IMG/VR virus record: IMGVR_UViG_3300024255_000104 | Coordinates: 1 to 30,634 of that record | Strand: one strand, 5' to 3' | Origin: a virus | Length of the DNA stretch: 30,634 nucleotides | Part shown: positions 4,172-27,675 of the stretch, piece after piece | Numbering within the stretch: the stretch's first letter is position 1 | Layout: each line of letters begins with the position of its first letter | Made by a program: the position numbers and the translations under genes | Notes under the pieces: generated by a model | Database searches by the model: none | Told to the model about the DNA's origin: nothing | Seen by the model: the letters and a program-made list of their open reading frames with translations, nothing else

Positions 4172-4999
4172 TCAGTATTCTAGTGCGTCTACTAAGTAAT
4201 TTTCATCGGTGTCTGTTAAAACGTCATCAATTGTTGTAGTGATAAACGTCTCCATGTAAGATTTATTCACAGCATCAAGGTTGTTTACAGGATTGGCCAC
4301 GCCAGCAATTCTTCTTTCGCTGGTGTATAGAGCAACTTCTCCGGCGCTTACATTTTCACCTACTGTTGTTAGATTCGTGAATGTTGCCTTACCATCTGCG
4401 TATATAGCGGCAAGGAGATCAGTAGCTGAGTTTTCCCATCTTTGTGCTTGTGTAGTGGCAGTATTGTTTGATGATCGAACAATAAGGCTCACAGACAAGG
4501 TGTCTATGCCGGGATTTATAGTGATATCAGCTAAAGAATTAGGAGCTTTAGAGACATAATTATCTCCAAGGTCAGCAGTTGAAACAAGATTGTTTACTTC
4601 TGACTTAGAATATGTTTGAGTTTTATCGTAGTAGTTGCTATTAAGATTAGCATTAATAGAATTAACATAAGAAGAGATTGACGAATCTACATATGCAATT
4701 GATGCATAAGAACTTAGGTTTAACTGAGCAAGAAGCTGATCCACCTCAATAGATGAGTAGCTTTTTTCTTGTGTGTAAACATCACTTAGATCCGCTTTGT
4801 CTGATAAGTACCTGTCTACCTCTCTTCTCGTGTAAAAATCTCTTGGGTTGAGTTGATCTGGAGTAGCTCCTTCGCCTTTAAATACATTAGGCGTTGAAGC
4901 TACTGGCCTTGCAGGAATAACTGAAGGCCTAGGAGCCGGAAGAATGCCGCTTCCGCTGGAACAATTTCGATTACTACCGTTTCCGAATACGTTTGCCAT
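4172..4999 (-). CDS. Tail fibre protein with EVD-type coiled repeats
   Basis: Encodes 275 residues. After a Pro/Ser-rich N-terminus (residues 1-50), residues about 55-140 contain the repeated pattern YTRREVDRYLSDKADLSDVY, YSSIEVDQLLAQ and YSKSEVNNLVS, typical of phage fibre shafts built from short Tyr-x-x-x-Glu-Val-Asp repeats. NPVNNLDAVNKSYMETF near residues 236-252 matches the DAVNKSYVD cap found at the C-terminal ends of many tail fibre proteins. It precedes the 671-residue appendage gene with a one-base gap, so the two products probably assemble together. No Shine-Dalgarno sequence is clear. A GTTTAAAG element lies only 6 bases upstream of the ATG. Confidence 0.75.
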   Translation of the reverse strand: MANVFGNGSNRNCSSGSGILPAPRPSVIPARPVASTPNVFKGEGATPDQLNPRDFYTRREVDRYLSDKADLSDVYTQEKSYSSIEVDQLLAQLNLSSYASIAYVDSSISSYVNSINANLNSNYYDKTQTYSKSEVNNLVSTADLGDNYVSKAPNSLADITINPGIDTLSVSLIVRSSNNTATTQAQRWENSATDLLAAIYADGKATFTNLTTVGENVSAGEVALYTSERRIAGVANPVNNLDAVNKSYMETFITTTIDDVLTDTDENYLVDALEY

Positions 5000-5015: not shown

Positions 5016-8000
5016 TTAGGGTTGATCGAGTTCATTGATCTCTTCTTGAGTAAGGACTTTTGGCGGAGTTCGTTCTACAAAATCGTTAAGAACTTCAAAC
5101 TCTTCACAGAGCTTGTTGCCTTCAAGACCAAAATAAGGAACAGGCTGCTCAACATAGTGGCCCATAGAACCTAGCTGAACGAGCTGATAGTTAGGTAGAT
5201 CTCGCGATCTCTGAGGCTCTAGGCATTTATTCATACCTGTGTTTACACAATAGACTCTCTGCCAAAAAATTAATCCAAGCGTGTTTGCAGTTCCGCCCAT
5301 CAAAGAGTGGTTGGCACAATAGTAATATAAGGTTGGTGCGCCTATCGGGACGGTGATTTCAGTGTATGCTTCGCTGCTACCAGCAGTGCCAACTTTAGTC
5401 ACACCTTGAGTAAATTCAGCTCCTCCATCGTGAGTGCCGTTAGGCGTAGTAGAGAAGCGTACTGGATGGTTAATGTTAGAGCTGTTATCCTGATTGAAGC
5501 GATAAGTCTGTCCTTCTCTGAGATTTACGGCAGTTTGTTGAGAACCGTCGATAAAGTAACGATTACCAGCGCTAACACTTTGTACTGTTACCTTATAGTT
5601 AGTAACGTCAGAAGAGGGCTTTAAGCGGGGTTTAAATTGTTCTAGTTCATCAAAAATTAACTTTGTAGCGGGGATATCTTCTATGCAAATATATAAGCAA
5701 ACAGTGTCTTTACATTCTCCTTCAACCCAAGCATAATCTCCTACTTTGTAAAAGAAGTCTTTTCTTATCCTGGCCTGCTCCCATTGGTCGTTACTCTGAC
5801 CATAAGGTCCGTTCTTTTCATTCAAACATTTCTCGACGTCAGCAATGGTGCTGTTGTTACTTCTACACTGGTCAAAGCTTAGCTGATAGAAGGCCTCATC
5901 CCATGTTGCGTTGTACTCTTCCCATTTCTTAAGAAAAAAGTCTAGCTCGTAGGGCTTGTATCTTTCTTTGATTTCTTCTGGGGTTGGAAGTCCTGCAGGG
6001 ATAGAAGTGATCACATGACAAATCTTCTTCCATTTCGTCTTATCAAACGGACCTGATAGAGAAGTAATTAGTTCCTGAGCTTCATATAACGAGACCTTAT
6101 ATCCATCGTCTTCTATGCGAAGCACTCTGTCCGCAGGGCGTTCGGTGAGGCAGGTCGCGTCGGCAGGAGAGGTTAACCCACCGGATCCGATCTTAGGGAA
6201 GTAGGAGTAGAGTGACATGTACTCGGAGACTTGCCACTTGTCATCTGTTTTTGTTCTATTGAGATTGCAAGTCTCTTGAGGAGTATCCAAGGCTTCTCTA
6301 AGCTGCCATGGGAACTCGATCTCTCCCCAAGTCTTATACAGACCCTTTTGAGAATTGTAAATCTGATAGGCTTCAAACAATTCTTCGATAGAGATACCGC
6401 AGCTGTTTTTATCTTTGCACTTATCTTTAGGATCGATTGGATCTACGTTTATTGCCTCAATATATTGTCTATCTGGCAATCTTTCTTTACCATGAACAGT
6501 TTCAGAGTCGGTAAGGTCAGAGTTGTAGAGCTCATCGGCCTGATCTTGGGTCAAACATCCACCTTCGCCAAAGACGTTAACTACGTCAAGTAGGTTAATA
6601 AACGCTGCCCTAGTATAAAAAACGTTAGTGTTAAATGTAATCTTTGAACGAACATGATAAAACTTCTCCGTTCCGGTGTTCAAAGAAATAGCACTTGCAG
6701 TAGTTAGCTGTAACGCTTTAGCCGTTTCTCCGGTGATATCAGACCAAGTTAGTTGTCCGTCAAAAGAAATTTCCCATTGATATGCCAAGGTGTAGGAACC
6801 GTAAGCAACGATCTCTGGGTCAAGGGTGTTAATTTCTTGACTATTTTCTCTTATAGAGAGGCCTTCCTGAATGTCTTTTACGATATCTGCAAACGGGTTC
6901 ACATTGAGAATATGAGTTGTAGTAAACCTTGTAGTTCCTACGGGATTAGATACTCTGCATCTGAACTCATCACCAAAGTCATGGCCTGTAAAAACGAGAG
7001 ATAGTGACCTTTCTTGCCCGTTTTCGCAAAGAGTCCATCCGTACTCCGGGCTTTCTCTTCTTTCCCATAAAAACGAGTAAGCTATTGAGCTATTATTAAT
7101 AATAATCTCAGGGAGCAGAATAACTTCTTGGTCTAGGTTTGCTATAGTTGGATTTTGTATAATTCCGCTAAGAGTAAAGGACTCAGAAATATTTGCGTTA
7201 ATTGGGCTTATTGTTACTGAGTCGTTGTTTCCCGTTGGATCAGAAATAATACATCTGTACCTACCATCAAAGTCTAAAGAAACTGGGTTGATTTCAAATT
7301 CACCTGTAGAATTAGTGTCATACAGATCCCAGAAAGTATTTCCGTCTAAGGTTACTTTCTTTTCAAGCCTGAACGAGGGCCTGTAGGGCCCAGAGAGGGT
7401 CGCAAAGACCCTAATCAATAGTTCCTCCCCTTCTACCGCAAAATAGTTTGCAGGAGCCGTAGTAAAAACCTCTAGCACAATCGGAGTAACATCAAGCTTA
7501 ACTGGTGATGTCTTGATCGGAGAGTTTTCAGATACATTGTCTAGGGCAATAGCTCTGTAGTATTTGTCATCACCGCTAGTGGCGTTAGTAATAGAAAACT
7601 CAGATTGTCCTCTAGACTCTTCAATTGTTTCCCATCCAGTAACGCCATCAGTTGATTTTTGCCAGTAGTAAAAGATTTCTTGTCTAGAGTTGGTCTTTGC
7701 TCTTGCAGTAAATGTAATGTCCTCTCCAGCATAAATAACCTCGTTCCTAGGAAGCTCAGCCCACTCTATAAGTGGGACAAAAATAATAACATTAACAACA
7801 GAAGAAAACTGAAACTGAACTGGGTCATTAACTCTACACCTATAAAACCCTGTGTCTTCAAGCACAGTGCCTTCGATAATAAGGGTTTTTTGGTTGCCCC
7901 CTTCTATCTTCTCATACTCACCGGTTATGGCATTTAACCTTTGCCACTCGTATCCAAATTCATCTTGAGATAAAACTTCATCACCCACAACCTCTACCTT

Positions 8001-11000
8001 CAGAGTAGCTGAAAAGCCACTAATAACAGAAACCTCAGAAGAAACATCTGTTGAGAAAGTAATCGGAGCAAAGTCCGCGATAATCTCTGTCGTGTTAGAG
8101 TAGGTAACTAGAAACGCGGCGTTGGTTATTACTTTACATCTATAGAACTTTCTGTACTGATCTGCTTCGAGATACTTAATAGACAGAGTGGTCTTGTTTT
8201 CCCCTATAATTGGTTCGTAAGGCCCAAAGAAAGTTGAACCTACTTCCCACTCATAGCTATAAATAGAGACGGTTTCGTCAGCTAGGACTTTTATGCTAAG
8301 CTCAATACTTCTGTCTTTATTGGCAGTAGAGAATCTCTCTAGGTTCTCTTCAAATAGAACATTAGGAATGGCTGTCGTATAAGCTACCTTAGGAAACGAG
8401 CCAAATAGGTTTGTATAAGAATCCCATCCCGTATCGTCAAAAGTGGTCGGGTCGTTGCCGTACTCAAACTCTGTGACGTTTAATGTTTGCAACTCTGCAA
8501 CGTACTTTTTAACGTTTTCTGAGGCCCAAGTTTTTGCTTTAGTAACTAAGGTTCCTATCCAACCCGCGGCAACAGGAGAAGCAGTTGATGTACCAGAAAT
8601 AGAAGTATCGTATGGTTTTTTATTTAGCCAAGTATAGTACTCGTCATTGTCGAATCTTACCGCATCTTCTTGGTTAGGGTTTCCGGCGGCTACAAGAACT
8701 TCGCTAGCAGGAGCAAGGAAGTCAATAGCTGAGCCATAGTTGCTATACCAGTCTTTTGTTTCTCTTACGTTTGAGCTTCTGTAAGAGTTCAGAGCGGCAA
8801 TAGAGAAACTTTTGTACGTTCCTGTAAGTGCATTATAGCCAAACCTAGCGGGGGTTCCTCTTCGGTTGACGTAGCGAGCATCATCTGTTGTAAAATCTGA
8901 ATCAGCAGGATTTTTGCTTGACCAATAGTTTTCATAGTCTGCCTCACCTGGCATAACTTGCTTTTGGTTATTGTTACCAGCACCACTCACCCAAATCACT
9001 CCAGGCTTATTAACAAACTCGTCGCCTGCGTCGGTCAAATCTGGGATGGAAGTCTCTGTAGAGTACCGAGACCCGGTTGTTGGATAAAAGTTTTTAAGAA
9101 ACTCAGGAGCAGGATCGGGGTTTCCAGCAGAAATAATATCAAAAGTCCCCGTGACCCCTCTAAAGCTGTAATAGTAAGTACCTGGTAGCCACCCATTTGC
9201 AACTTCGCTTGTCCAGGTATAGCTATTATTAACAATGGTTACTCTTTGCTTATTAAGCTCTGGATCGACAGGCTTATACTTATGGAATACTTCTAGGATC
9301 TCTAGGACTTTAGCTGTATAGATGACCCCAAGACCAGCGGTCAAAGACCCTTGCTGCTGAGCAATATTCCACTTATTTGCATTAGGTGCGTGGCCATAGT
9401 TCTTACCGTACATCGCCGAAGCAACTGGGGTACCGTGATTTGCAAAGGTGGATCCTCCAGTTACCTTTTGTACGGTCGGATATTCAGAGAAGCTTCCGCA
9501 CATCCTTGCTCTTGTGTAATCAGCTGATATGCCGGTAATCTCTGGAATATCAAAGAACTTAGAAGAGCGAGAAAATTTATCAGACCACCATAACCTTGCT
9601 TTTTCTTCTTTGGCTGTTGTTCTACCTAGGAAAGTTGTGGTGAGATTGTTAGATTCAAAATAATCAGGGTCAAGGTAGTAAGGTCCGTCAAGGAAGATAT
9701 CTTGGATTTGAGATATGCCATTTTCATCTACAAACTCAGGGTGGCCGTGCCATGCTCCATTGTCAATAACAACTGCATCAATGAGCTCTCCAGCTTCGCC
9801 TGCTCTATGAGAAATATTAGTATTTAACGTCTTACCAAAGTAAACCTTGTTTCTAGGAACATTTTGATCGCCGGCTGGTAACTCTTCATATTGCCCAATC
9901 CATGGGTCGTCGCGACTAGTGGTTCTTACTCTTGCCCAGTTAGTTCTATTTAAATCTGTTTTTAACGGGTAGAGGTCATCATCATCTGCAAAATAAGATT
10001 TAAGAGCAGTAGTTAGATTAAGGAGGCCTTCTCCGATAATGACTGCACCATCAATATCTCCTCTCGAGTCATTGCCTAGTACCTTATCGAATCCTACATA
10101 ATCATACGTTACGGTACCAGAAATCGTTCCGCCACCAGACTTAGCGCCTGAGTAGTAAATCGACTGAACTGATAGGCCTCTATTACTAAGAGCAACTTCC
10201 AGTTCATCGGCCGCTAGTTGCTTATAAGCCGAGCCTCTGCTAATAAGAAGGAATTTAGATACAAAATCGTCGTCGTCAGCGTCTGTATCATTAACTAGCT
10301 CTACAGGAGAGTATGCTTTCCACTGAGCTTCTGCAGCAGAGCTGTTTGCAAAGTCAACGGTATTAATGCTAGGCTTAACGCCCCATGCGTTCATAAAAGC
10401 CCATTCTCTTCCGCCGGTAGCATTGTCGGCTACGCCAGAGATATATCCGTTAATATCATAAGTCTCTGCGTCAATTGCAACAACGGCCTGAATGGCAGAA
10501 ACAGGAACCTCTGCTACATCGAGCAATTCTTTTTTAGTTCCGGCCAATGCGGCTAAGTAGGCACCGGCTCCGTGGCCTAAAAGAATAAATCCGTTAGGAT
10601 CCAGTCCGTAAGTATTGGCATTGTCTCTTAGAAACTTAACTGCGTTAATAACATCGGTAACTTGCTGAACACCAGTGTTTCTACTTGTCCACGAGTTAAG
10701 TGCGAAATCTAAAGACCCGGTATCTACAACTTCAGAGCTTGTGTTAGCCGTAAGATTTGTATTTGTTACGAGTCGGTAGTTAACGCTTACGTAGTTGTAC
10801 CCGAGCCCGTTAAAGTATAGAGCTTTATTGCCTTCACCGTCATTACCGTCAAAGGTATTTTTATCTCCATCGATGAAGTTATTAGACTGGCTAACACCTC
10901 CATGAATTGCAACAATGGTAGGTCTGCTGCCGTAGGTAAACCTAGATATATTTAATTGTAAAGTCCCAGAATAAGCAACAGACTGTAAAGTGCTCAGGTC

Positions 11001-11324
11001 GTCTCTTGCAGGCTGGTTGTAATTAGGACTGAGTAATACATTTTTGTATGCATTAATGCCAATATGCTGAGGCACATCTACTTCGTCTTGATGATAATGC
11101 CCGTCTAGCGTAACATATCTTACTTTAGAGTGGTTTTTAACTAAAGTTACTTCTTCCTCGTCAAGGAGGTAGGTGGCTCTGTTGGCATAAACGTCTTTTT
11201 TATCAATGCACTCACAAGCGCGACTCGGGATGTTATCATCCAAAGTCCCATCTTGTAAAAGTAAATTATGGATCCCCGGCCAATCGGAGGGTGATTTTAC
11301 GCATACGACGTAGCTTTTCTTCAT
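5016..11324 (-). CDS. Giant virion protein: hydrolase-like, subtilase, Ig and cupredoxin domains
   Basis: Encodes 2102 residues, preceded by GGAGGG about 9 bases before the ATG. Residues 1-75 could be a protease pro-segment. Residues about 95-400 resemble an alpha/beta hydrolase: HGG at 141-143, and GHGAGAYLAAL at 250-260 where esterases have GHSAG, so the nucleophile is Gly252. Residues about 505-935 are subtilisin-like, with Asp521 (VVIDNG, then HPEF), His630 (NHGTPVAS), a candidate oxyanion Asn784 (GAGNNN) and Ser913 (SGTSTASP). Residues about 980-1590 hold roughly six Ig-like repeats, each ending in FYRCKV-like strands. Residues 1590-1900 are Cys/Trp-rich and unknown. Residues about 1905-2020 are cupredoxin-like, with His1953, Cys2003, His2006 and Met2009. 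The gene lies between probable tail tube and fibre genes, so the product is probably a baseplate or fibre component. Domain calls are strong; substrate, activity and copper binding are inferred. Confidence 0.8.
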   Translation of the reverse strand: MKKSYVVCVKSPSDWPGIHNLLLQDGTLDDNIPSRACECIDKKDVYANRATYLLDEEEVTLVKNHSKVRYVTLDGHYHQDEVDVPQHIGINAYKNVLLSPNYNQPARDDLSTLQSVAYSGTLQLNISRFTYGSRPTIVAIHGGVSQSNNFIDGDKNTFDGNDGEGNKALYFNGLGYNYVSVNYRLVTNTNLTANTSSEVVDTGSLDFALNSWTSRNTGVQQVTDVINAVKFLRDNANTYGLDPNGFILLGHGAGAYLAALAGTKKELLDVAEVPVSAIQAVVAIDAETYDINGYISGVADNATGGREWAFMNAWGVKPSINTVDFANSSAAEAQWKAYSPVELVNDTDADDDDFVSKFLLISRGSAYKQLAADELEVALSNRGLSVQSIYYSGAKSGGGTISGTVTYDYVGFDKVLGNDSRGDIDGAVIIGEGLLNLTTALKSYFADDDDLYPLKTDLNRTNWARVRTTSRDDPWIGQYEELPAGDQNVPRNKVYFGKTLNTNISHRAGEAGELIDAVVIDNGAWHGHPEFVDENGISQIQDIFLDGPYYLDPDYFESNNLTTTFLGRTTAKEEKARLWWSDKFSRSSKFFDIPEITGISADYTRARMCGSFSEYPTVQKVTGGSTFANHGTPVASAMYGKNYGHAPNANKWNIAQQQGSLTAGLGVIYTAKVLEILEVFHKYKPVDPELNKQRVTIVNNSYTWTSEVANGWLPGTYYYSFRGVTGTFDIISAGNPDPAPEFLKNFYPTTGSRYSTETSIPDLTDAGDEFVNKPGVIWVSGAGNNNQKQVMPGEADYENYWSSKNPADSDFTTDDARYVNRRGTPARFGYNALTGTYKSFSIAALNSYRSSNVRETKDWYSNYGSAIDFLAPASEVLVAAGNPNQEDAVRFDNDEYYTWLNKKPYDTSISGTSTASPVAAGWIGTLVTKAKTWASENVKKYVAELQTLNVTEFEYGNDPTTFDDTGWDSYTNLFGSFPKVAYTTAIPNVLFEENLERFSTANKDRSIELSIKVLADETVSIYSYEWEVGSTFFGPYEPIIGENKTTLSIKYLEADQYRKFYRCKVITNAAFLVTYSNTTEIIADFAPITFSTDVSSEVSVISGFSATLKVEVVGDEVLSQDEFGYEWQRLNAITGEYEKIEGGNQKTLIIEGTVLEDTGFYRCRVNDPVQFQFSSVVNVIIFVPLIEWAELPRNEVIYAGEDITFTARAKTNSRQEIFYYWQKSTDGVTGWETIEESRGQSEFSITNATSGDDKYYRAIALDNVSENSPIKTSPVKLDVTPIVLEVFTTAPANYFAVEGEELLIRVFATLSGPYRPSFRLEKKVTLDGNTFWDLYDTNSTGEFEINPVSLDFDGRYRCIISDPTGNNDSVTISPINANISESFTLSGIIQNPTIANLDQEVILLPEIIINNSSIAYSFLWERRESPEYGWTLCENGQERSLSLVFTGHDFGDEFRCRVSNPVGTTRFTTTHILNVNPFADIVKDIQEGLSIRENSQEINTLDPEIVAYGSYTLAYQWEISFDGQLTWSDITGETAKALQLTTASAISLNTGTEKFYHVRSKITFNTNVFYTRAAFINLLDVVNVFGEGGCLTQDQADELYNSDLTDSETVHGKERLPDRQYIEAINVDPIDPKDKCKDKNSCGISIEELFEAYQIYNSQKGLYKTWGEIEFPWQLREALDTPQETCNLNRTKTDDKWQVSEYMSLYSYFPKIGSGGLTSPADATCLTERPADRVLRIEDDGYKVSLYEAQELITSLSGPFDKTKWKKICHVITSIPAGLPTPEEIKERYKPYELDFFLKKWEEYNATWDEAFYQLSFDQCRSNNSTIADVEKCLNEKNGPYGQSNDQWEQARIRKDFFYKVGDYAWVEGECKDTVCLYICIEDIPATKLIFDELEQFKPRLKPSSDVTNYKVTVQSVSAGNRYFIDGSQQTAVNLREGQTYRFNQDNSSNINHPVRFSTTPNGTHDGGAEFTQGVTKVGTAGSSEAYTEITVPIGAPTLYYYCANHSLMGGTANTLGLIFWQRVYCVNTGMNKCLEPQRSRDLPNYQLVQLGSMGHYVEQPVPYFGLEGNKLCEEFEVLNDFVERTPPKVLTQEEINELDQP

Positions 11325-11354: not shown

Positions 11355-11783
11355 TCAGTTATAGGTAAATGTATCCATAACAAAAGTAAGCTCTAGAGTA
11401 GATACGTTAGTAGACGATCTGTCAGCTTGACCGAAGTTGATGGAAGTGATCTGTGCGTCGGGGATTGTGATAGTCCTATTACCCAGAGGAGAGGGGTCTT
11501 CGCCGCACTCAACTGGAGTAACAGTTAAAGTAATGTAAGAGCAGTCGTAGGTCTTCCAGAAGTCAACGATGTCTGCGTGCTTTTCAGGGTCAAATGGTGC
11601 GGAAACGGTTACTTCTGCAAGGGTACGAGGACCCTTGAGCTGGAAAATACGTCCTCTTACGCCATCGGCATATTGAGTAGTACCAGAAGTATCTCTGATT
11701 CCTGAGAAAGTCGTGAAGTAATGCTGGAAAGGCGAGGCCTGGATCCAGTATTGTGCTTGGGTAATCGGCTTATATGCTAACAT
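11355..11783 (-). CDS. Probable tail tube protein
   Basis: Encodes 142 residues. The pattern is beta-rich with one central helix: GPRTLAEVTVSAPFDPEKH, then IVDFWKTYDCSYITLTVTP, then a final pair of strands STLELTFVMDTFTYN. This length and order (strand, helix containing a Trp, long hairpin, C-terminal strand) fit the tail tube proteins of contractile phages, which are usually about 140-170 residues. A tube gene is expected because a sheath gene is present at 24067, although sheath and tube are adjacent in many phages and here they are far apart on opposite strands. No Shine-Dalgarno sequence is obvious. The identification rests on fold-like pattern and size, so a different small structural protein remains possible. 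Confidence 0.5.
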   Translation of the reverse strand: MLAYKPITQAQYWIQASPFQHYFTTFSGIRDTSGTTQYADGVRGRIFQLKGPRTLAEVTVSAPFDPEKHADIVDFWKTYDCSYITLTVTPVECGEDPSPLGNRTITIPDAQITSINFGQADRSSTNVSTLELTFVMDTFTYN

Positions 11784-11835: not shown

Positions 11836-13704
11836 TTATTGAAAATAAGGATCAAACCATCTCCAGTATCCCTTGGCGTATGTGTCTAAAGTTACCGCTT
11901 CTCTGTGAACGGCGTATCTATTTAACCTGAATGCAGACTGGTATAAACCAACCAAGTCTTTAGAACCACACTCAGAAAGGCTCTCTTGTTCTATTAACGC
12001 TTTGATTCTCTGTAGCTCTGTTTCTAGAATAGATTTAGATGCTAGCGCCTCAGGAGGTATTTTCTTAAGATTTCTAACCTCTTCTATTAGCCTCTCCACA
12101 ACAAAGACGATTTCTCCTGGTGAAGTAAACTCGTCTATTTGGAGCCTAGAGATCTGCATCTCATTACCCGTAGAGTCAGTTACGATCCTCTGGAAGCCCA
12201 CGTCATCAAGGTCACCCTTGAAATTAGCAGCGATCTCTTGAGACATCTTCTGTTTCTCTGAAGGCTCTTCAAAATCGAATAGCTTCATAAGGTCTGTGCC
12301 AAAGTCCATGTCTTCTGCCATTGGAGCTTCAGCTTCAGCACCTCCTTCCATGGGTGGCATCATTCCTCCCATCATTCCACCTTCTGGCATCTCTTGCTTA
12401 ATTAGTGAAGGGATGTTAAGCTTCTCTTTTAGCCAATCAATATCTTCTACTTGGTAGCCCAAAGCTCCTAGCTGAGATAGTACTTGCACCATACGTACTG
12501 GGTCTTCTCTCTGCTTGAGATCTTCAAAGTTACGAACCAATCTAGGAGGGTTCTTACCAGGGTAATTGAGTTCTACTATCCATCGGACCAATGTGGAGTT
12601 TATTGTCTCGTCAAGCTCTTCAGAAAATGCTTTAGCTTTTCTCATCCTTACAGAGTCTGCAATTTGATCTCGCGCGAATGAGCCAACACTGCCAGTCTCT
12701 TGACCAACAGTCGTCTCTCCGTTTATCACAAAACTGATCTGCTGATCGATGTATGTAATGAGCTGGTTGTAGAGTTCTGGTCGGCCATTACTTTCTAGCC
12801 ATTGGATATCCATCTCGTCGGGGATAACAACGGCGGTCTCTTGACCCAGTCTCTGCAATGCTGTAAATAAAGAGTTAACTTCTTCTTCAGGAGTACCTAA
12901 GCTGAACTTACCAACAGCCGTTGGTGTCGTATGCTTATCTGCGTACTGAAGCCAAAAGTTAAGAAGGGTCCTTCTAAATTCTACAAGAGGATAAAGCTGA
13001 CGACCAAGACCAGAGCCATGAACGTCCATAAAGTTACTGTAGGACCAATGGCGATGAAGAATCATTGAGCGTAGAGGAATCCCCATGCCCTCTACAGGAG
13101 AGAACATAGTGATAAGCCTGGGACTTACAGTACCATCTTCATTAAGACGGAACAAGAAACGTCTAGGGTCTCTTACCTTAATCTCTGAGGGTACTATATA
13201 CTTACCCTGTCTCATCCAACAGATCTCACTGATAGACATGCCAAGTACAATTGACTCGCACATGCCACGGATGAAGGTATCAAACCCCGAGTTAGTCGAA
13301 ACTAATTGCTCTTTACCGTAGGACTGACGAGTATTGCTACCCATGCGATTGATTACTTGCCGCACGAACTCAGCAACTTCTTCATCTTCAGATGAATCCG
13401 AGGAGGGGTAAACCTCCCATGGCCTCTGAATAATTTCGCCTATTAATTTTTCCCAAGCTGCAAGAATTTGGCTGTCATTAAACAGCCTCATATACTTCTC
13501 TACAGCTCTAGGCCCGCCACCACCTTCTTCTAGAAGGATGTCGTCTCTGCGGGGAAGTATTACTCCACTTGTAAGATACGGGGCTCCTGAGTAGGAGTAG
13601 GGATCTGATTTATACCCCGCTAAATTCCCCTGAGCTACACCCAAAGAAAAGTATCGGTCAAAAAACCCAGATTTTATATGTCGTTGGGGGTTCTCAGAGG
13701 ACAT
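11836..13704 (-). CDS. Portal protein, Mu gp29 / DUF935 type
   Basis: Encodes 622 residues. The portal is the dodecameric ring at the head vertex through which DNA is packaged. Residues about 70-100 (LAAWEKLIGEIIQRPWEVYP), 140-180 (FDTFIRGMCESIVLGMSISE, then VPSEIKVRDPRRFLF), 213-260 (SMILHRHW through GLGRQLYPLVEFRRTLLNFW, then YADKHTTPTAVGKF) and 290-345 follow the order of the DUF935 family that includes Mu gp29. Residues 436-466 are a Met/Gly/Glu-rich linker (EMPEGGMMGGMMPPMEGG) before a helical C-terminal region ending near YWRWFDPYF, longer than usual for the family. It is preceded at 30 bases by GTTTAAAG lying within the 3' end of the previous gene. It is encoded far from, and opposite to, the protease and capsid genes. 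Confidence 0.9.
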   Translation of the reverse strand: MSSENPQRHIKSGFFDRYFSLGVAQGNLAGYKSDPYSYSGAPYLTSGVILPRRDDILLEEGGGGPRAVEKYMRLFNDSQILAAWEKLIGEIIQRPWEVYPSSDSSEDEEVAEFVRQVINRMGSNTRQSYGKEQLVSTNSGFDTFIRGMCESIVLGMSISEICWMRQGKYIVPSEIKVRDPRRFLFRLNEDGTVSPRLITMFSPVEGMGIPLRSMILHRHWSYSNFMDVHGSGLGRQLYPLVEFRRTLLNFWLQYADKHTTPTAVGKFSLGTPEEEVNSLFTALQRLGQETAVVIPDEMDIQWLESNGRPELYNQLITYIDQQISFVINGETTVGQETGSVGSFARDQIADSVRMRKAKAFSEELDETINSTLVRWIVELNYPGKNPPRLVRNFEDLKQREDPVRMVQVLSQLGALGYQVEDIDWLKEKLNIPSLIKQEMPEGGMMGGMMPPMEGGAEAEAPMAEDMDFGTDLMKLFDFEEPSEKQKMSQEIAANFKGDLDDVGFQRIVTDSTGNEMQISRLQIDEFTSPGEIVFVVERLIEEVRNLKKIPPEALASKSILETELQRIKALIEQESLSECGSKDLVGLYQSAFRLNRYAVHREAVTLDTYAKGYWRWFDPYFQ

Positions 13705-15354: not shown

Positions 15355-18300
15355 ATGTTAAACACCTCCACAATAGTGCAGCTAGAGGGAATCAAAGCGA
15401 CGCTTAGCTTGTACATCGAGGCTACTTTATCCGCCTATGAGGCTGAAAGAGGGAAGTTTGAGATAAGCAAAAACAGAAGGGTCTATAGTGAGGCTTTATA
15501 TGATATCTATGCAGCTATCTTAGATAGGGTTATTCAAGAGAAGTCTGTAACGATCCTTCCGCTAACCTTTAAGATCACCGGCGCGCTGATTTCTTTTGGA
15601 TTTAATCTCGAGTTATTTTTAACATTATTTGTGTCTACAAATGAAGTTATTAAAGCTGGGTACGTTCAGCAGGGCCCTAAAACTGCCGTTATCGACCAGT
15701 ATCTAGACGCCTACATTAAAGAAGTTGTTAGTTCGCAACAGGGTCTTTCATACTATCTAAGCGGGCTTACTTCTCAGCAGCAAGTTCAGCTTATTGAGCA
15801 ATACAATCCCTCAACTGCAATTGCCGACATTGTAGTTCCAAACAGCAAAGTGAACCTACAAACAAGATATATTTATCCGCTTATCGATGACTACTTGTAT
15901 TGGGAAACGCAAGAAGAGAAATATCTTGATGCGTCTTACACAACTCAGCGTTTAACTATTTACAGAGACACCCTTTACAAACTCAACCAAGGAGTTGCCA
16001 AGCCTTCCGCCGGACAGTTTGAGCCGGAAGAGTGGAGTGAGTATACATCAAAGTTTCTTGGCAAGGAAAGTACATTTAACAACCGCTTAAAAACAAATAC
16101 AGAAAAGTATATAAGTGAAGCCCTAAACCAATCTAGGTTTCTCAATAATATTATTTCTGACTCTGATATTAAGACTGTAGAAACAGACTTAATCTATGAT
16201 AATAAAGACTTAGATATTTCTTTTGCCGGCAAGGGCAATAGTATTATCAAAAACATCCTCAATCTCAAAGAAACAATCAAGTATTTTGGAGGTAGCGAAG
16301 CATCTCCTGTGGGAAGCATTGAGTACATTGCCAGTTTTGCTGAGTATCTTTATGCTTGTAACTATTCCAGGGTTGTTGATGGCGGACAATTTAGTATTGA
16401 TGGTCTGAGCATTTTTGGACATTTTAATTTAATCTTTGCCTATGACTTCGGTGTTAATAAAATAGCTGGATTAAAATTCCTTGATAGCTTCAAGTCGTTG
16501 GCCAGTTTTCGTCAAAATACTAAGATCCCTGAGCTGGTTGAGATCAAAGAAACCGAAAATAATACTATTGAGCTCAGCTACAACCCAGTCTATGCTAAAT
16601 ATACAGAGGGATTAAAAGACAGGTTTATTAGCTATCCTAAAAATGTCTATGTAGATGCTCCAGGCTTCTCTCAGAAATCTGACAACTATGTTATTGACGT
16701 TCTATTGTTTGGACTTGAAAGCATTACTGCGATTGCCAATGTGATTGGAGACGTAGTCAACTCTCTAGATTCTGGGCTAGGAAAATCTGGAACTATTCCA
16801 GGTTATGAAGGATACGGTCCGGTATCTATTCAAATTGCCGAACTTGCCGCCTTATTCGTTCCTACAAACACTATTGAGCAGGCTACAGCAAACGGAAAAG
16901 TCTTACCTGGATTTAACGGATCGGTTCTGGCTCTGCTAAATGCTTACAGAAAGCTTACTGCAATCGTTCCTAATGTTCCTCTTACTGGCGAGTCTTTGAG
17001 CTATGTTTCTGTATGGGCAAGGAATCTTCAAAAAAACCTAGAAAGAATTGTAGATGATATCAGCTCTATAGGATACTTTCCAGGTAGTTTTATTCCTAAC
17101 ATCTCATTCAAAGCGTCGCCTAAAGAACAAGAGACACTTATTGACCAGCTCAGATCGCTTAACTTCCAAGAAAGCGAAATTAGTCAGTTCCTTTCTGTAG
17201 AATCTTTTGAGGAAATGGTCAACAAGTTCGCTCCTGTTTCTGACAGCGTTGATGAGATCTCTTTCTTCAAAGGATACGAGCTATCTCAGCTTATTTACGA
17301 GTTTGGTGGAGAAAGCGCTATTGATGCCTATATTAACTACCTATATGCTCCTGATCAAGATGGCTTAGTTAATCTTCTAAAGATTTCTTTGAAGGACCAG
17401 TCAGATGTTTCTGTGTATAATCAAAGCAAATTTGGTAAGCTAGTTGGTTTACTTGTTAACCTAACATTTGCAGTTGACCCGGGCCAAATCGAGGTTTTTA
17501 AGGAATACCTATCTGGTAACTTCTTGACTTTGTTTGAATCTATCTCTTATCTACTCGAGAACAGTCAGGCGAACATCTTGAAAAACAAGAATGATATTAG
17601 TCTCCTTGAGCCAGTTGCAAATTCTTTGATCTATGGCAAATCGATCTTTGATGTAAATAGCTATAACACTGACTATAACATTGTAAATAGAGATGCTCCA
17701 GTTGCTTTGCAGCAAATGACTAGGCTAATCGACAAAAACTTGGGCAATGTTGCCACACCACTCCTTCAGGGTCTGTACGATAAAAGCGTTGGTCTGACTT
17801 CTAAAGAACTAGTTTCTATTTTGAGCCCAGAGTCCCAGACTACAGAGCTCGGTCAAATTCTTGCTGGGTCTGAAGGTGGTAGACTTACAAAATTAATTAA
17901 CTACGCTTATCTATCTGGATTAGTTCATAAGCTTTCCTATTACTCCAACTCCTATCAAGTTCCTAACTTCTTTGTAAGTCCGACTCCTGGTTTTAATATG
18001 GCGGTCCTTGTAGGAACAATTGAGCAGTTAGTTTTTTCTATTGACCTAACAGTTACTAACTTTGTCAATGCTCTAGAGTACTCTACTCCTCTAGATACGG
18101 AAACATTGTACTCATTTAATAATATTGCCAATCTATACAACAAAAAAATTGATACTGCTTCTTATGTTGTTAAGAATCTAATTCCTATCGGCGGAGAGAT
18201 CACAAACGTAGCAAACCCCGTTGCTCCCGCTAGCGCAGAAATTATTGGCTCGCCGGGCATTGGTAACTCTCCAGCACCAGAAAGCATTTCTAAGATTAAC

Positions 18301-19443
18301 TCAATTACTCCAGAGCAAAGAGACCAATTTGTTCCTATCGTAAAAACAAATTTTTCCTTTGTTGCTAATAGAAAGAAATCAGAGTACACGGAATCTCAAG
18401 TATTTGAAAAATTTATATCTCTTATTCAAAACAACAAAGAATTAAATGGAGTTCCTTCTATTAATAACACTATAGTTGGAGAAAGTAATTATGCCGAAGT
18501 AGTCACCCAAACGAGTAAAATGACCTACTCAGATCCTACTTACTCTTCGTCATTAACAACTAGCAGCAGCAGCAGCGGCAGCAGCAGCGGTAACGGAACT
18601 GTTGGCAAAGCAGAAACATTTTTGGCAACTGACAACCTAGAGGCAAATAGAAATGTTCCTGTTGCTATTCTTAGACCCGCTGTTAACCAACTAAAAGAGC
18701 GGGAAAGATCACAAGCTATTGACGGATTGATTAAGCAAGGTCTAATTCAAGTGTTTAATCCCGAAGAATCTTGTAGATACTTTGGTGGTGATAAGTGTAA
18801 AAGCAGGTTTGCTGAAAAACAAAACACCTGCGGAGATCCTACAAATAAGGCAATTTACTCGGAAAGAGACTCTTCTCCAAGCACTACTATAGCAAACGGA
18901 AGTGTATTTGTTGATAGGCCTTACGGATATTCCCAACCCAACAAAATATTTAAGTACTTTGTCCCAGACGGAGAAAACAATAAGCCAACTTATTTTAATG
19001 TATTTAAAGATATTAAGGTACGTGTTACTAATGGCGGTGAGCCTGTCTTCGACGAGATCTTTAGTGAGCCTTTAGTATTCACAAGGGATAGTAAACCTCT
19101 TTCTGAAGATGTTACTCTTGAAGATAAGAGCTCTGTTAATACTGGGGCGGGTGAGAGCATATTGTTCAAGCCTGCAGTTGCTTTTTCAACAGAAGAAAAC
19201 AAAAACAAAAATCCAGCGCTAGAAAAATACTACTCTTCTTATTATAACTCAGAGTTTGGATTAATTGAGGCCATTAAAGCAAAATGGGAAAGAAATGATG
19301 CTTTCAATTGTGCTTTACTCGATGATCCTTATGCCTATCAAGCTTGTATGAATTTACTTAAGTGCAAAAAATTTGAAAGAAGAGACGGAATTTCATCGCT
19401 GAGTTTCTGTCCTAGAACCTTGGCAGGAGGCCTCTTTAAATGA
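15355..19443 (+). CDS. Large (1362 residues) predicted virion protein, unknown
   Basis: Encodes 1362 residues. I do not recognise a family. Residues 1-1000 look mainly helical with scattered hydrophobic patches (NLELFLTLFVSTNEV near the start, KFGKLVGLLVNLTF around 690-705) but no clear membrane segment, signal peptide or heptad pattern long enough for a tape measure. Residues about 1060-1085 are a flexible linker in which serine AGC codons run in tandem (residues 1070-1078, interrupted once by Gly). The C-terminal 250 residues are Cys-bearing (ESCRYFGGDKCKSRF near 1139, later CALLDDPYAYQACMNLLKCK), suggesting a separately folded tip. Its stop overlaps the next gene by ATGA. It is first in a plus-strand set of structural-looking genes, so a baseplate or appendage protein is plausible but unproven. 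Confidence 0.7.
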   Translation: MLNTSTIVQLEGIKATLSLYIEATLSAYEAERGKFEISKNRRVYSEALYDIYAAILDRVIQEKSVTILPLTFKITGALISFGFNLELFLTLFVSTNEVIKAGYVQQGPKTAVIDQYLDAYIKEVVSSQQGLSYYLSGLTSQQQVQLIEQYNPSTAIADIVVPNSKVNLQTRYIYPLIDDYLYWETQEEKYLDASYTTQRLTIYRDTLYKLNQGVAKPSAGQFEPEEWSEYTSKFLGKESTFNNRLKTNTEKYISEALNQSRFLNNIISDSDIKTVETDLIYDNKDLDISFAGKGNSIIKNILNLKETIKYFGGSEASPVGSIEYIASFAEYLYACNYSRVVDGGQFSIDGLSIFGHFNLIFAYDFGVNKIAGLKFLDSFKSLASFRQNTKIPELVEIKETENNTIELSYNPVYAKYTEGLKDRFISYPKNVYVDAPGFSQKSDNYVIDVLLFGLESITAIANVIGDVVNSLDSGLGKSGTIPGYEGYGPVSIQIAELAALFVPTNTIEQATANGKVLPGFNGSVLALLNAYRKLTAIVPNVPLTGESLSYVSVWARNLQKNLERIVDDISSIGYFPGSFIPNISFKASPKEQETLIDQLRSLNFQESEISQFLSVESFEEMVNKFAPVSDSVDEISFFKGYELSQLIYEFGGESAIDAYINYLYAPDQDGLVNLLKISLKDQSDVSVYNQSKFGKLVGLLVNLTFAVDPGQIEVFKEYLSGNFLTLFESISYLLENSQANILKNKNDISLLEPVANSLIYGKSIFDVNSYNTDYNIVNRDAPVALQQMTRLIDKNLGNVATPLLQGLYDKSVGLTSKELVSILSPESQTTELGQILAGSEGGRLTKLINYAYLSGLVHKLSYYSNSYQVPNFFVSPTPGFNMAVLVGTIEQLVFSIDLTVTNFVNALEYSTPLDTETLYSFNNIANLYNKKIDTASYVVKNLIPIGGEITNVANPVAPASAEIIGSPGIGNSPAPESISKINSITPEQRDQFVPIVKTNFSFVANRKKSEYTESQVFEKFISLIQNNKELNGVPSINNTIVGESNYAEVVTQTSKMTYSDPTYSSSLTTSSSSSGSSSGNGTVGKAETFLATDNLEANRNVPVAILRPAVNQLKERERSQAIDGLIKQGLIQVFNPEESCRYFGGDKCKSRFAEKQNTCGDPTNKAIYSERDSSPSTTIANGSVFVDRPYGYSQPNKIFKYFVPDGENNKPTYFNVFKDIKVRVTNGGEPVFDEIFSEPLVFTRDSKPLSEDVTLEDKSSVNTGAGESILFKPAVAFSTEENKNKNPALEKYYSSYYNSEFGLIEAIKAKWERNDAFNCALLDDPYAYQACMNLLKCKKFERRDGISSLSFCPRTLAGGLFK

Positions 19444-24066: not shown

Positions 24067-27000
24067 ATGGCTAATCCTGTAAACATTAATGTAGGCGCTC
24101 TACAGCGTCCTGGAGTGTTTGTTACTCAGTCATCAACTGGCGGATTACCTCAGCCCCTGGCATCTCATGCCATTGGCTACATCTTTGGTTCTACACCCGT
24201 AGATCCTTATGATAATCAACCAATTGATAGCTACGCATCACTTCCTCCATATAAGCCAACACAGATTGGCTCTCTCACTGACTTCATTCAAAAAGCTGGT
24301 GGTGTCCCCTCAGCTGAAAACAATTCTCAGTCCGTAATCTCTTACGACGCTGTAAATGCTTTCTTTGAAAACGTAGGTGTAAACGGTGTTCTCTATTACA
24401 CTAGAGTTACCCCCACTCCTGAACTTAAGGTTGTACTGACCAAAGGTGCAGGTTGGAACCTATTCTCTCTAAAGCTTAGCGATCGTTACTATGGAGATAA
24501 GTCTCTAGGAATTAACGACAATGATGGCATCGCCATCAAAGGTATCACTACTACTGCATTAGATTCTAACGATAACGCTTTTGATATTGTTGGATATTTA
24601 AGAGAAGACGATCCCGATTTTAGTACTTACTATCGCATTGAGCAAACTGACGAAGAGGCTAAAGCTGCTACATTTAGAATTTATTCTAAAGATGTCCGCG
24701 TAGTTCCTGAAATCCAAAGCTTTAAAGGCTATCAGATCTCTGATACTGCCTATGCAACTCCGACTGACGCCGCAACGATCTCTACTTACGTTCCTATGAA
24801 GGAACTTAATTTTAGACCTGTGTCTAGAGATCTTGCGACTCAGGAGCCCGTTCTTCCTATTTCTGGTGCGGCTATTGGTGCCTATCTAGAAGAAGTAAGC
24901 AAGACGACTACCGTCACTGCTTCTGAAACCACAAACGACATAGTATCTGTCACTAGCGTTGCCGCTCTTTCCATCGCTGGTACTTCTGCAGATCCTCTTG
25001 CCGCTGGTGATTCAGTCGTATTTGAAGGTATTGATCCTGGCCAAGCCGCTTATGTCGGCGTTGGCGTTGATCCTCAGACCGGGCTTACTTTTGGCGAGAC
25101 TTACTATGTAACTGGTATCAGTGGTAATACATTCAAGCTTTCTGCTACTCAGGCAGACGCTGTTGCTAATGCCGGTGATGGTCAAAACTTTGTTAACCTT
25201 AGCGCCGATGCTAACGTAGACGGAGTTAGAGTTCGTAGACTTAAGTACGACTTCGAAGGCGGTAACCCTGCTGCTCCTAATGCGGCTGCTAAGCTAACTG
25301 CGCTATCCGATGCTATCGAAGGTTTCCTTCTTAACGCCGGTGTGTATGCTGCAATTGGTGATATCCCCTCTGGTAAAGTTGTTGCTGTTACTCTAGACAA
25401 CAGAACAGGTAAAGCTGCTCAGGTCATGTGGCCTTCAAGCGAAGCAAGATACTTCCGTTGGGATGGATCAGCTGCTTTTGCTAAAGGATTCGATGGTTCC
25501 AATGCAGACTCTGCTCCTAATGGTACAATCACCTCAACAGGTGGTAACGTCACCAGAAGCGGATATGTTCCTGACAGTGTCCAGGTATTCTATGTAAACG
25601 TTGCAGGCGAGAACAGAGCTATTATTGCTAATGGCGCTACTCCTGCTGAACTTACAAATGATATCAGAGATAGCTTGATTGAGATCCTTAAGGACAAGGA
25701 ACTTGATGCATTCTATGATGTTGAATCGGTCGCAGTTGATTACACCTCTGGTGGATTAAGTGCTAATGAGTTTGCTCCTAATAACGGAATTGCGATCTCC
25801 AATAATATCGCAACCGCAGGTATTCCTGAGCTTCGTGCTTCAGCAACCTCCTCAAAGCTTACCGGAACTCTAGTCTATGACAAGAGCGTCGATGGCACCA
25901 CAATTAAAGGTGCTACTGGTAACAACCTAACAGGTACTGTTCAGATTTCCGCTGAATCAAATACCTCGGTTACTGCAGGTAACTTTGTTATTAATGAATT
26001 CTACGTAATTAAGTCTGTAGGTAGTACTGACTTTACTGCTATTGGAGCTGCTACAAATACCGTAGGATTAGAATTTAAAGCCACTGGTGCGGGCACAGGA
26101 GACGGAGTAGCGTATGATACTAAAGGTGACCTAGACCTTGTTGGTACAAGCACACAGTATCTTTCCCAAATTTCTCCTGGTCAGAACCTACTTGTTAATA
26201 GCAAGACTTACGAAGTTGTTGAGGTCTTTAGTGACACCACGGCTTCTGTAAGACTTTCTGGATCTGCTGCTGAAAATGGACCTACGAACGTGACGGGTGC
26301 AACCTACAGTATTGTAACCACAAACTTCACCGAAGAGCTTACCAATGGCGACTTTGTTGTTATTGCCGGTGTTAGGTACGAGGTTGCTCAGGCTCCTACA
26401 CGCGACGATCAGTTCGTTGTACAAACCGCTCCTGCTGCTAATTTTGCAAGCAACACGATCGGATATCTTGACAGCTCTGAAGCCAACGGCTACTATCGTC
26501 ATGATTACCTTCTTAAGTTAAAAATCACCTCTAAGAACGGTATCCCTTCTCCTGTTGTTCCCGGTCTCGATCGTTACGGCAAGAAAGATAGTAACGTTAG
26601 AAGAGTTAATTCTCCTGACGAAGCTGCTGACTTTGCGAACTACAAGCTTTCTGCTAAGGCTCGTGCTCAAGACTTCGTATATGCTATCGAGCAAGGTATG
26701 GGATCTGGCGACTATCGCCCTGGTTTCTTATGTGCTCCTGAAGCATTTGGATCTTTTGTATCTCAAGTCGGTGGAATGACTAAGACTCAGGCAAGAGTAG
26801 AAAGAGTTAAAGTTACCCAATCTCTTCTCAAAGCTGCCGAAGGTAGGCTTGGTGAAGTCGAAGGTATCTCTGGTACTCAACATATTGCCCTCATTGACTG
26901 CGGCGGAGACGAAAACTCCCTGAGTGAAGTACAAGATGAACTTGCTTATATCAAGTCTATCGCCGGTGCTCCATTCGGCCATGCTGCTTTCTATGGTCCA

Positions 27001-27666
27001 TATATTAAAAATGCTTCTGATCGCTTCGTACCTGCCAGCCCATTCATTGCTGGTATCGCATGTTCTAGATATGTTAACGAAGGATTCCAGCAAGCACCTG
27101 CTGGTGCAAGGTACCCACTAAGAGGAGCCACTGGTCTCCGCTTTGATATCACCGCCCAGCAACAAGAAGTTACTTATCCTCTAGGCCTCAATCCGATCAG
27201 AAGCCTACCCAATAGAGGAATCGTAGCTTGGGGTGCAAGAACAATGAGCTCCAACGCTCTATTCAAATACGTCAATACTAGAGCAATCCTTAACGTCCTC
27301 CTCGACGTTATGGCCAGAAGCTTTGACGACGTCCTATTTGAACAGATCGACTCCGCTGGTACTCTCTACGCTAGAGCCAAGTCTATCGCCTCTCAGGTTA
27401 TGGGCCAACTCTATCGCCAAGGTGCCCTCTTTGGTGCAAGGCCAGAGCAAGCATATCTGGTTGTTTGTTCTGATGCTAATAATTCCCTAGCCGATCTAGA
27501 AAATGGAACATTAAGACTCGATGCTTACGTGGCTACATCGCCAACGCTTGAGCGTCTAGTTGTTACTGTAGTTAGAACACCTGCTGGTCAGGTTGCTCAG
27601 GTACAGGATACCTTCTCTAGAAACGTTGATAGATTCGACTATCTACTTAACGCTACTACCATCTGA
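24067..27666 (+). CDS. Contractile tail sheath protein with large internal insertion
   Basis: Encodes 1199 residues, far above the usual 400-700. The sheath forms the contracting outer tube of the tail. Residues 1-270 (QRPGVFVTQSSTGG near 13-26, and VNAFFENVGVNGVLYYTRVT) and about 860-1199 (HIALIDCGGDEN, NRGIVAWGARTM at 1049-1060, and NTRAILNVLLDVMARSFDDV, then FSRNVDRFDYLL) match the N- and C-terminal parts of the phage sheath family, including the conserved GIVAWGAR-type strand. Between them lie at least two modules. One is at about 285-365 (YYVTGISGNTFKLSATQ). The other is at about 637-685 (VIKSVGSTDFTAIGA through FKATGAGTGDG), a repeat I associate with marine phage proteins. Codon use is balanced and unlike the AT-rich genes just upstream, as expected for an abundant protein. 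Confidence 0.9.
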   Translation: MANPVNINVGALQRPGVFVTQSSTGGLPQPLASHAIGYIFGSTPVDPYDNQPIDSYASLPPYKPTQIGSLTDFIQKAGGVPSAENNSQSVISYDAVNAFFENVGVNGVLYYTRVTPTPELKVVLTKGAGWNLFSLKLSDRYYGDKSLGINDNDGIAIKGITTTALDSNDNAFDIVGYLREDDPDFSTYYRIEQTDEEAKAATFRIYSKDVRVVPEIQSFKGYQISDTAYATPTDAATISTYVPMKELNFRPVSRDLATQEPVLPISGAAIGAYLEEVSKTTTVTASETTNDIVSVTSVAALSIAGTSADPLAAGDSVVFEGIDPGQAAYVGVGVDPQTGLTFGETYYVTGISGNTFKLSATQADAVANAGDGQNFVNLSADANVDGVRVRRLKYDFEGGNPAAPNAAAKLTALSDAIEGFLLNAGVYAAIGDIPSGKVVAVTLDNRTGKAAQVMWPSSEARYFRWDGSAAFAKGFDGSNADSAPNGTITSTGGNVTRSGYVPDSVQVFYVNVAGENRAIIANGATPAELTNDIRDSLIEILKDKELDAFYDVESVAVDYTSGGLSANEFAPNNGIAISNNIATAGIPELRASATSSKLTGTLVYDKSVDGTTIKGATGNNLTGTVQISAESNTSVTAGNFVINEFYVIKSVGSTDFTAIGAATNTVGLEFKATGAGTGDGVAYDTKGDLDLVGTSTQYLSQISPGQNLLVNSKTYEVVEVFSDTTASVRLSGSAAENGPTNVTGATYSIVTTNFTEELTNGDFVVIAGVRYEVAQAPTRDDQFVVQTAPAANFASNTIGYLDSSEANGYYRHDYLLKLKITSKNGIPSPVVPGLDRYGKKDSNVRRVNSPDEAADFANYKLSAKARAQDFVYAIEQGMGSGDYRPGFLCAPEAFGSFVSQVGGMTKTQARVERVKVTQSLLKAAEGRLGEVEGISGTQHIALIDCGGDENSLSEVQDELAYIKSIAGAPFGHAAFYGPYIKNASDRFVPASPFIAGIACSRYVNEGFQQAPAGARYPLRGATGLRFDITAQQQEVTYPLGLNPIRSLPNRGIVAWGARTMSSNALFKYVNTRAILNVLLDVMARSFDDVLFEQIDSAGTLYARAKSIASQVMGQLYRQGALFGARPEQAYLVVCSDANNSLADLENGTLRLDAYVATSPTLERLVVTVVRTPAGQVAQVQDTFSRNVDRFDYLLNATTI

Positions 27667-27675
27667 TAATTGAAA

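Follow-up and report, generated by a model that had tools for sequence, protein, structure and literature searches.

A 2102-residue tail-locus protein of an Aurunvirus-like cyanophage: interchangeable modules on a conserved core and a putative protease-tipped arm

Architecture of the 2102-residue chain

The virus record analyzed here, IMG/VR IMGVR_UViG_3300024255_000104 (30,634 bases; "the window" below), carries on its minus strand, at 5016-11324, a single reading frame of 2102 amino acids (aa) that runs from an ATG without any internal stop. In order, the encoded chain comprises an I9-like pro-segment, an α/β-hydrolase domain, a subtilase, six immunoglobulin-like (Ig-like) units, and a Cys/Trp-rich core split by a cupredoxin-like domain. 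An initial annotation, made from the letters alone, had listed the same domains, and Pfam, AlphaFold and profile matches support the individual parts. Its layout required two revisions. The hydrolase is present, but as an insertion between the pro-segment and the subtilase, and what had been taken for an unknown block followed by a short C-terminal tail are the two parts of one core protein (residues 1590-1905 and 2019-2102) interrupted by the cupredoxin-like domain. The features of the gene are as follows:

5016..11324, minus strand: whole gene, proposed Aurunvirus-type tail chassis protein with plug-in modules (2102 aa)
11070..11324, minus strand: I9-like pro-segment, residues 1-85 (comparison with S-TIM54)
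9981..10949, minus strand: α/β-hydrolase (esterase-like), residues 126-448, inserted between pro-segment and subtilase
10569..10571, minus strand: Gly252 in GHGAG, at the nucleophile position (Ser in S-TIM54, GHSAG; sequence comparison)
8499..9809, minus strand: subtilase (S8) catalytic domain, residues 506-942 (Pfam, PHROG and fold matches)
9762..9764, minus strand: predicted catalytic Asp521 (column conserved in relatives)
9435..9437, minus strand: predicted catalytic His630 (column conserved in relatives)
8586..8588, minus strand: predicted catalytic Ser913 (column conserved in relatives)
6567..8369, minus strand: six Ig-like units (putative stalk), residues 986-1586 (Pfam and comparison of units)
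5610..6557, minus strand: conserved core, first part, residues 1590-1905 (profile and repeat comparison)
5271..5609, minus strand: cupredoxin-like domain, residues 1906-2018, in the loop of the second core repeat (profile and ligand motif)
5466-5468, minus strand: His1953, fourth predicted copper ligand
5298..5318, minus strand: Cys2003-x2-His2006-x2-Met2009, three of the four predicted copper ligands
5019..5270, minus strand: conserved core, second part, residues 2019-2102 (comparison with core relatives)

A tblastn comparison with phage records returned one full-length match to this protein, at the same locus of the isolate cyanophage S-TIM54 (Aurunvirus). The S-TIM54 homologue (UYE97265.1, 2140 aa) has the same domain order and an intact subtilase triad, and is 50.6% identical over 2157 alignment columns. 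Conservation differs by part, being highest in the core and cupredoxin (74-76%) and the pro-segment (72%), intermediate in the subtilase (55%) and hydrolase (44%), and lowest in the Ig units (24-52%), which represent the fastest-changing part of the chain. The two proteins differ in these diverged Ig units and in the hydrolase, which in S-TIM54 retains GHSAG and a C-terminal His. A second contig, L001, matches the window at 99.98% identity across 14,388 bp and includes residues 1-1750. The S-TIM54 homologue and this contig together exclude an assembly join of separate genes, a concern raised with the initial annotation; L001 might derive from a related sample set, such that S-TIM54 is the stronger control. 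The domain combination had also been put forward as undescribed in phages. The complete architecture is already in GenBank with S-TIM54, so it is not new to databases, but it is labelled only "virion structural protein" and is apparently uncharacterised; in the literature searched, which did not cover the original S-TIM5 paper, no description of a protein of this type was found. RNA genes and tRNAs were looked for in the window and none were found.

A conserved core at a conserved tail locus

A profile search of IMG/VR identified 54 loci with the core, most of them stand-alone genes of about 340-390 aa. The core itself contains two related repeats (hhalign P 6.4e-5, from the comparison of two low-diversity profiles). 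Among core-bearing contigs the order portal, tube, core, 275-aa gene and 671-aa gene is held as far as each contig reaches, with the tube gene immediately upstream and homologues of the 275-aa and 671-aa genes downstream where the contigs extend. This agrees with the earlier description of the gene as lying between tube and fibre genes. In the window, the neighbours in this block are:

11836..13704, minus strand: portal gene, conserved neighbour
11355..11783, minus strand: tail tube gene, conserved upstream neighbour
4172..4999, minus strand: conserved downstream neighbour of 275 aa
2155..4170, minus strand: conserved downstream neighbour of 671 aa, tail/fibre-type (weak N-terminal PHROG match)

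The syntenic portal-tube-core block, together with a large sheath gene of the S-TIM5 type, places the window with Aurunvirus (the S-TIM5 group), an assignment based on these genes and their order. Cellular relatives of the core were sought in genome contigs without result, and Pfam, PHROG, PDB sequence and fold searches identified no counterpart in T4 or another known system. A motif-based reading of the core repeats as CBM5/12 carbohydrate-binding modules found no Pfam support at E 1, leaving only the internal duplication supported. Three core homologues (L056:7941-9482, L057 and L058) end in GYGGGYGGY, the close of a long C-terminal tail of low complexity that is rich in Pro and Thr.

Examination of relatives at this locus revealed a range of module states. 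In the core tree, L002 is sister to the window and S-TIM54 (support 100/100); its core is 74% identical to that of the window and is bare, lacking both arm and cupredoxin. In S-TIM5 and S-TIM61 the product of this locus has 485 aa (AEZ65678.1) and matches only the C-terminal region, sharing the homologous core and its loop cupredoxin but lacking the pro-segment, hydrolase, subtilase and Ig units. L067 combines pro-subtilase, Ig units and core without a hydrolase, and L068 and L069 are partial copies of this type. A hydrolase of another family, which keeps a GHSQG motif, stands N-terminal of the core in L027 and mid-core in L048 (47.5% identity between the two). The cupredoxin lies C-terminal, not in the loop, in L015, L017, L039 and L040; at the site it occupies in the window the loop of other members comprises 8-21 residues, and L015-L017 possess a different insert of about 100 residues.

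The cupredoxin also differs from the surrounding core in its pattern of divergence. Between the window and S-TIM5, amino acid identity is 46.6% in the first core part, 84.1% in the cupredoxin and 66.3% in the last core part, and third codon positions, which are near saturation, are identical at 40%, 63% and 40%, respectively. Identity to S-TIM54 is even across these three segments (74-77%), and the cupredoxin of the window is closer to the S-TIM5 copy than to that of S-TIM54. These values are most simply explained by exchange of the cupredoxin as a cassette; a shift in constraint confined to this domain could not readily account for the higher identity at third positions. Given that relatives at the same locus lack the protease, hydrolase, Ig or copper domain, and that S-TIM5 possesses only the last of these, no added module is essential to the basic structural function of the gene. 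The fixed multi-function device initially proposed is better described as a conserved small tail core that accepts varied modules, with host contact retained as the likeliest role.

Domains of the arm and the cupredoxin-like insert

Residues 506-942 match Peptidase_S8 (Pfam E 4.7e-9) and the subtilase-containing family phrog_9158. Asp521, His630, Asn784 (the oxyanion Asn) and Ser913 are present in subtilisin order, in columns conserved among 30 relatives, and the AlphaFold model finds its best PDB matches among proteinase K-like enzymes (best Foldseek E 1.8e-10, with a TM by target length of about 0.6-0.7). From its triad, oxyanion Asn and predicted subtilisin fold, the domain appears to be an active-looking subtilase that would carry out proteolysis. 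Residues 1-85 are predicted to form a compact beta-alpha-beta-beta-alpha-beta domain (AlphaFold pLDDT about 90); this high-confidence topology is that of I9 propeptides, but there is no Pfam I9 match. A homologous pro-segment directly precedes the subtilase in S-SSM7, S-SCSM2R, Sf-CH5 and many metagenomic phages; in both the window and S-TIM54 the two are separated by a hydrolase some 320 aa long.

This hydrolase belongs to the BD-FAE / alpha-beta hydrolase family (Pfam E 8.7e-14). The initial annotation had called it dead, and comparison with S-TIM54 bears this out: in place of a GxSxG nucleophile motif the window has GHGAG with Gly252. Judged by these residues, homology to the fold family stands and membership as an active enzyme is rejected. 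The probable catalytic His is lost as well as the Ser, as the window reads YDYVGFDKVLG where S-TIM54 reads YNHEGIHKVIG. The S-TIM54 hydrolase, retaining both GHSAG and the C-terminal His, may still be active, but neither protein has an evident acid residue at the canonical position. PDB matches of the S-TIM54 hydrolase to PPR repeats were set aside as chance sums over repeats. A search of IMG/VR for further relatives of the module found only the near-identical contig.

The Ig-like units match Ig_3, ig and I-set (Pfam E 4.9e-12 and weaker). When compared with one another, not all pairs are alike above chance, and most units are linked via at least one other. Seven such units are visible by eye in L067.

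Subtilases with a related pro-segment are found in several other phage settings. Stand-alone pro-subtilases of Kyanoviridae (T4-GC 292, matching PHROG 9158; for example S-SSM7 YP_004324284 and P-SSM2 YP_214528) share the pro-segment and subtilase at roughly 25-35% identity, but are separate genes without hydrolase, Ig units or core, and adjoin tail or fibre genes. In S-SCSM1 (QFG06492.1) the pro-subtilase lies within a long chain in a tail gene cluster, as in the window, but laminin-G-type lectin-like domains replace the Ig units and core. Protease and Ig units are also joined where no core is present: the 1695-aa chain encoded at L126:5992-11076 unites a pro-subtilase with four or more He_PIG-type Ig domains. 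Two or more pro-subtilase genes are adjacent within one contig in L096, L120 and L138. A further giant chain, S-BM3 WDS61281.1 (2648 aa, annotated as peptidase S8), possesses cupredoxin-like domains and an Ig stretch homologous to that of the window (22% identity), but differs in having a YHYH domain and no core, and Pfam S8 was not detected in it at E <= 0.01.

For S-SCSM1, a virion proteome of 45 proteins determined by mass spectrometry is reported (PMC9602691). The GenBank notes of this phage mark as "(virion protein)" both its chain of pro-subtilase and laminin-G-type domains and a relative of the L027 hydrolase (52% identity over the main piece), the latter also being marked as tail fibre. 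From these record-level marks, relatives of both enzyme types, the pro-subtilase and the GHSQG hydrolase, likely ride on virions. The order of pieces within the GHSQG module varies, with GLETFTTGHQSPILFTQ... preceding the nucleophile part in L027:1058-3043 and following it in S-SCSM1 (L148:2884-3987), which looks like a circular permutation between phage proteins.

The cupredoxin-like domain of the window has no Pfam match on its own, and PHROG matches for residues 1912-2014 are to tail-fibre families. A profile of 15 phage copies searched against PDB placed plastocyanin, Cu nitrite reductase, rusticyanin and amicyanin first, matches that are weak but consistent (best E 7.5e-4). The window possesses His1953, Cys2003, His2006 and Met2009 in the order of type-1 copper ligands. 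Among 77 distinct copies in the loci examined, the Cys and second His are invariant (77/77), as is the first His wherever readable (76/76), and the axial residue is Met in 58 copies and Gln in the other 19, the two residues that usually fill this role at type-1 copper sites. The ligand pattern suggests that the domain binds copper. By tblastn it was identified in at least 140 phage records, comprising cyanophages, Pelagibacter phages and Methylophilales phages, and in the literature searched it is nowhere described as a virion copper site. Some marine phage tail proteins that carry the domain are annotated as baseplate wedge or PetE.

Elsewhere in the window, the tail sheath gene (24067-27666, 1199 aa) has a long N-terminal part that matches only the phrog_17610 sheath family (residues 1-625), and the general family phrog_23 matches only residues 877-1184. 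A 1362-aa protein without a PHROG match (15355-19443), divergent from the portal block, is conserved in related contigs; in S-TIM5 and S-TIM54 its counterparts bear the annotation virion structural protein. At 27670-29571, a head maturation protease match is limited to residues 14-210 of a 633-aa protein, the remainder of which has no family match.

A candidate protease-tipped arm and its alternatives

The best explanation of this gene, to which we assign a probability of roughly 0.7, is that its product is an arm anchored in the tail and tipped with a protease for processing the host surface, assembled from exchangeable modules on a conserved core. Relatives that likely ride on S-SCSM1 virions and the fixed place of the core in the tail block both suggest an arm that shows its subtilase to the host. 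The conserved C-terminal core of this Aurunvirus-like cyanomyovirus tail protein would anchor the chain in the virion and serve as chassis. In the lineage of the window it would bear an N-terminal arm of pro-segment, dead esterase-like domain, active-looking subtilase and six-unit Ig stalk, with a type-1-copper-like domain in the core loop. The Ig stalk may keep the subtilase away from the tail, and the pro-segment may aid its folding and block it until cut, after which the protease would trim host surface proteins. The dead hydrolase and the Ig units could serve for binding or as spacers. Cleavage of the pro-segment, should it occur as it does in other subtilases, would leave the hydrolase at the tip of the mature arm.

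Several observations weigh against this explanation. Modelled by AlphaFold, the core reaches a mean pLDDT of only 58, and this poor model returned no fold match, so that its place in the tail is putative. Both S-TIM54 and S-TIM5 products carry the annotation virion structural protein, but in S-TIM54 this label may have been transferred by homology. Furthermore, WH8102 is listed as host strain both for S-TIM54, which has the arm, and for S-TIM5, which lacks it; the protease is thus not needed to infect WH8102, and the arm is an accessory that may influence the range of hosts or how efficiently they are infected, and not basic infection.

An improbable alternative is that the subtilase acts on phage proteins, processing its own chain and tail neighbours during assembly in a maturation-like manner, with no role at the host surface. 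The pro-segment implies self-cleavage, and a protease located midway along so long a chain could split it into parts. Bare-core relatives and S-TIM5, however, build tails at the same locus without a subtilase, the window holds the separate head maturation protease match at 27670-29571, and stand-alone pro-subtilases adjoin fibre genes. We consider it equally unlikely that the arm is a passive binding device, its hydrolase, subtilase and Ig folds being used for adhesion and any catalysis being irrelevant. The hydrolase of the window is already dead, and Ig units and the lectin-like partners of relatives do suggest binding. Against this, about 30 diverse relatives retain the catalytic residues of the subtilase, and no part of the arm is better conserved than the pro-segment, for which a pure binder would have no use. 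In a third and very improbable reading, the fusion is rare or degenerating, contributes little besides its core, and is losing the arm. In favour of this, the hydrolase nucleophile has gone, the arm is seen only in S-TIM54, the window lineage and the L067 group, and the hydrolase module recurs in IMG/VR only in the near-identical contig; against it, a 6.3-kb frame has stayed open in two lineages about 50% diverged, with subtilase triad and copper ligands kept, and L067 retains a protease-Ig arm.

Virion-borne enzymes, Ig-like domains on phage tails and modular tail proteins are kinds already known. More surprising are the widespread type-1-copper-like domain and the many module states of a single chassis gene: at one locus the core is seen alone, joined to a copper-type domain, extended by a protease arm, or carrying either of two unrelated hydrolase insertions. 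As a tentative and rather doubtful extension, the core might be a dedicated tail chassis with preferred insertion sites for swapping enzymatic and metal-binding host-contact modules, and the widespread copper module might hold copper in the virion and use it in host contact. The stepwise gain of host-contact tools by phage tails can be compared here within one family and in cultured isolates, S-TIM5 and S-TIM54. If true, copper on marine phage tails would be a surprise and would provide a link to ocean trace-metal biology.

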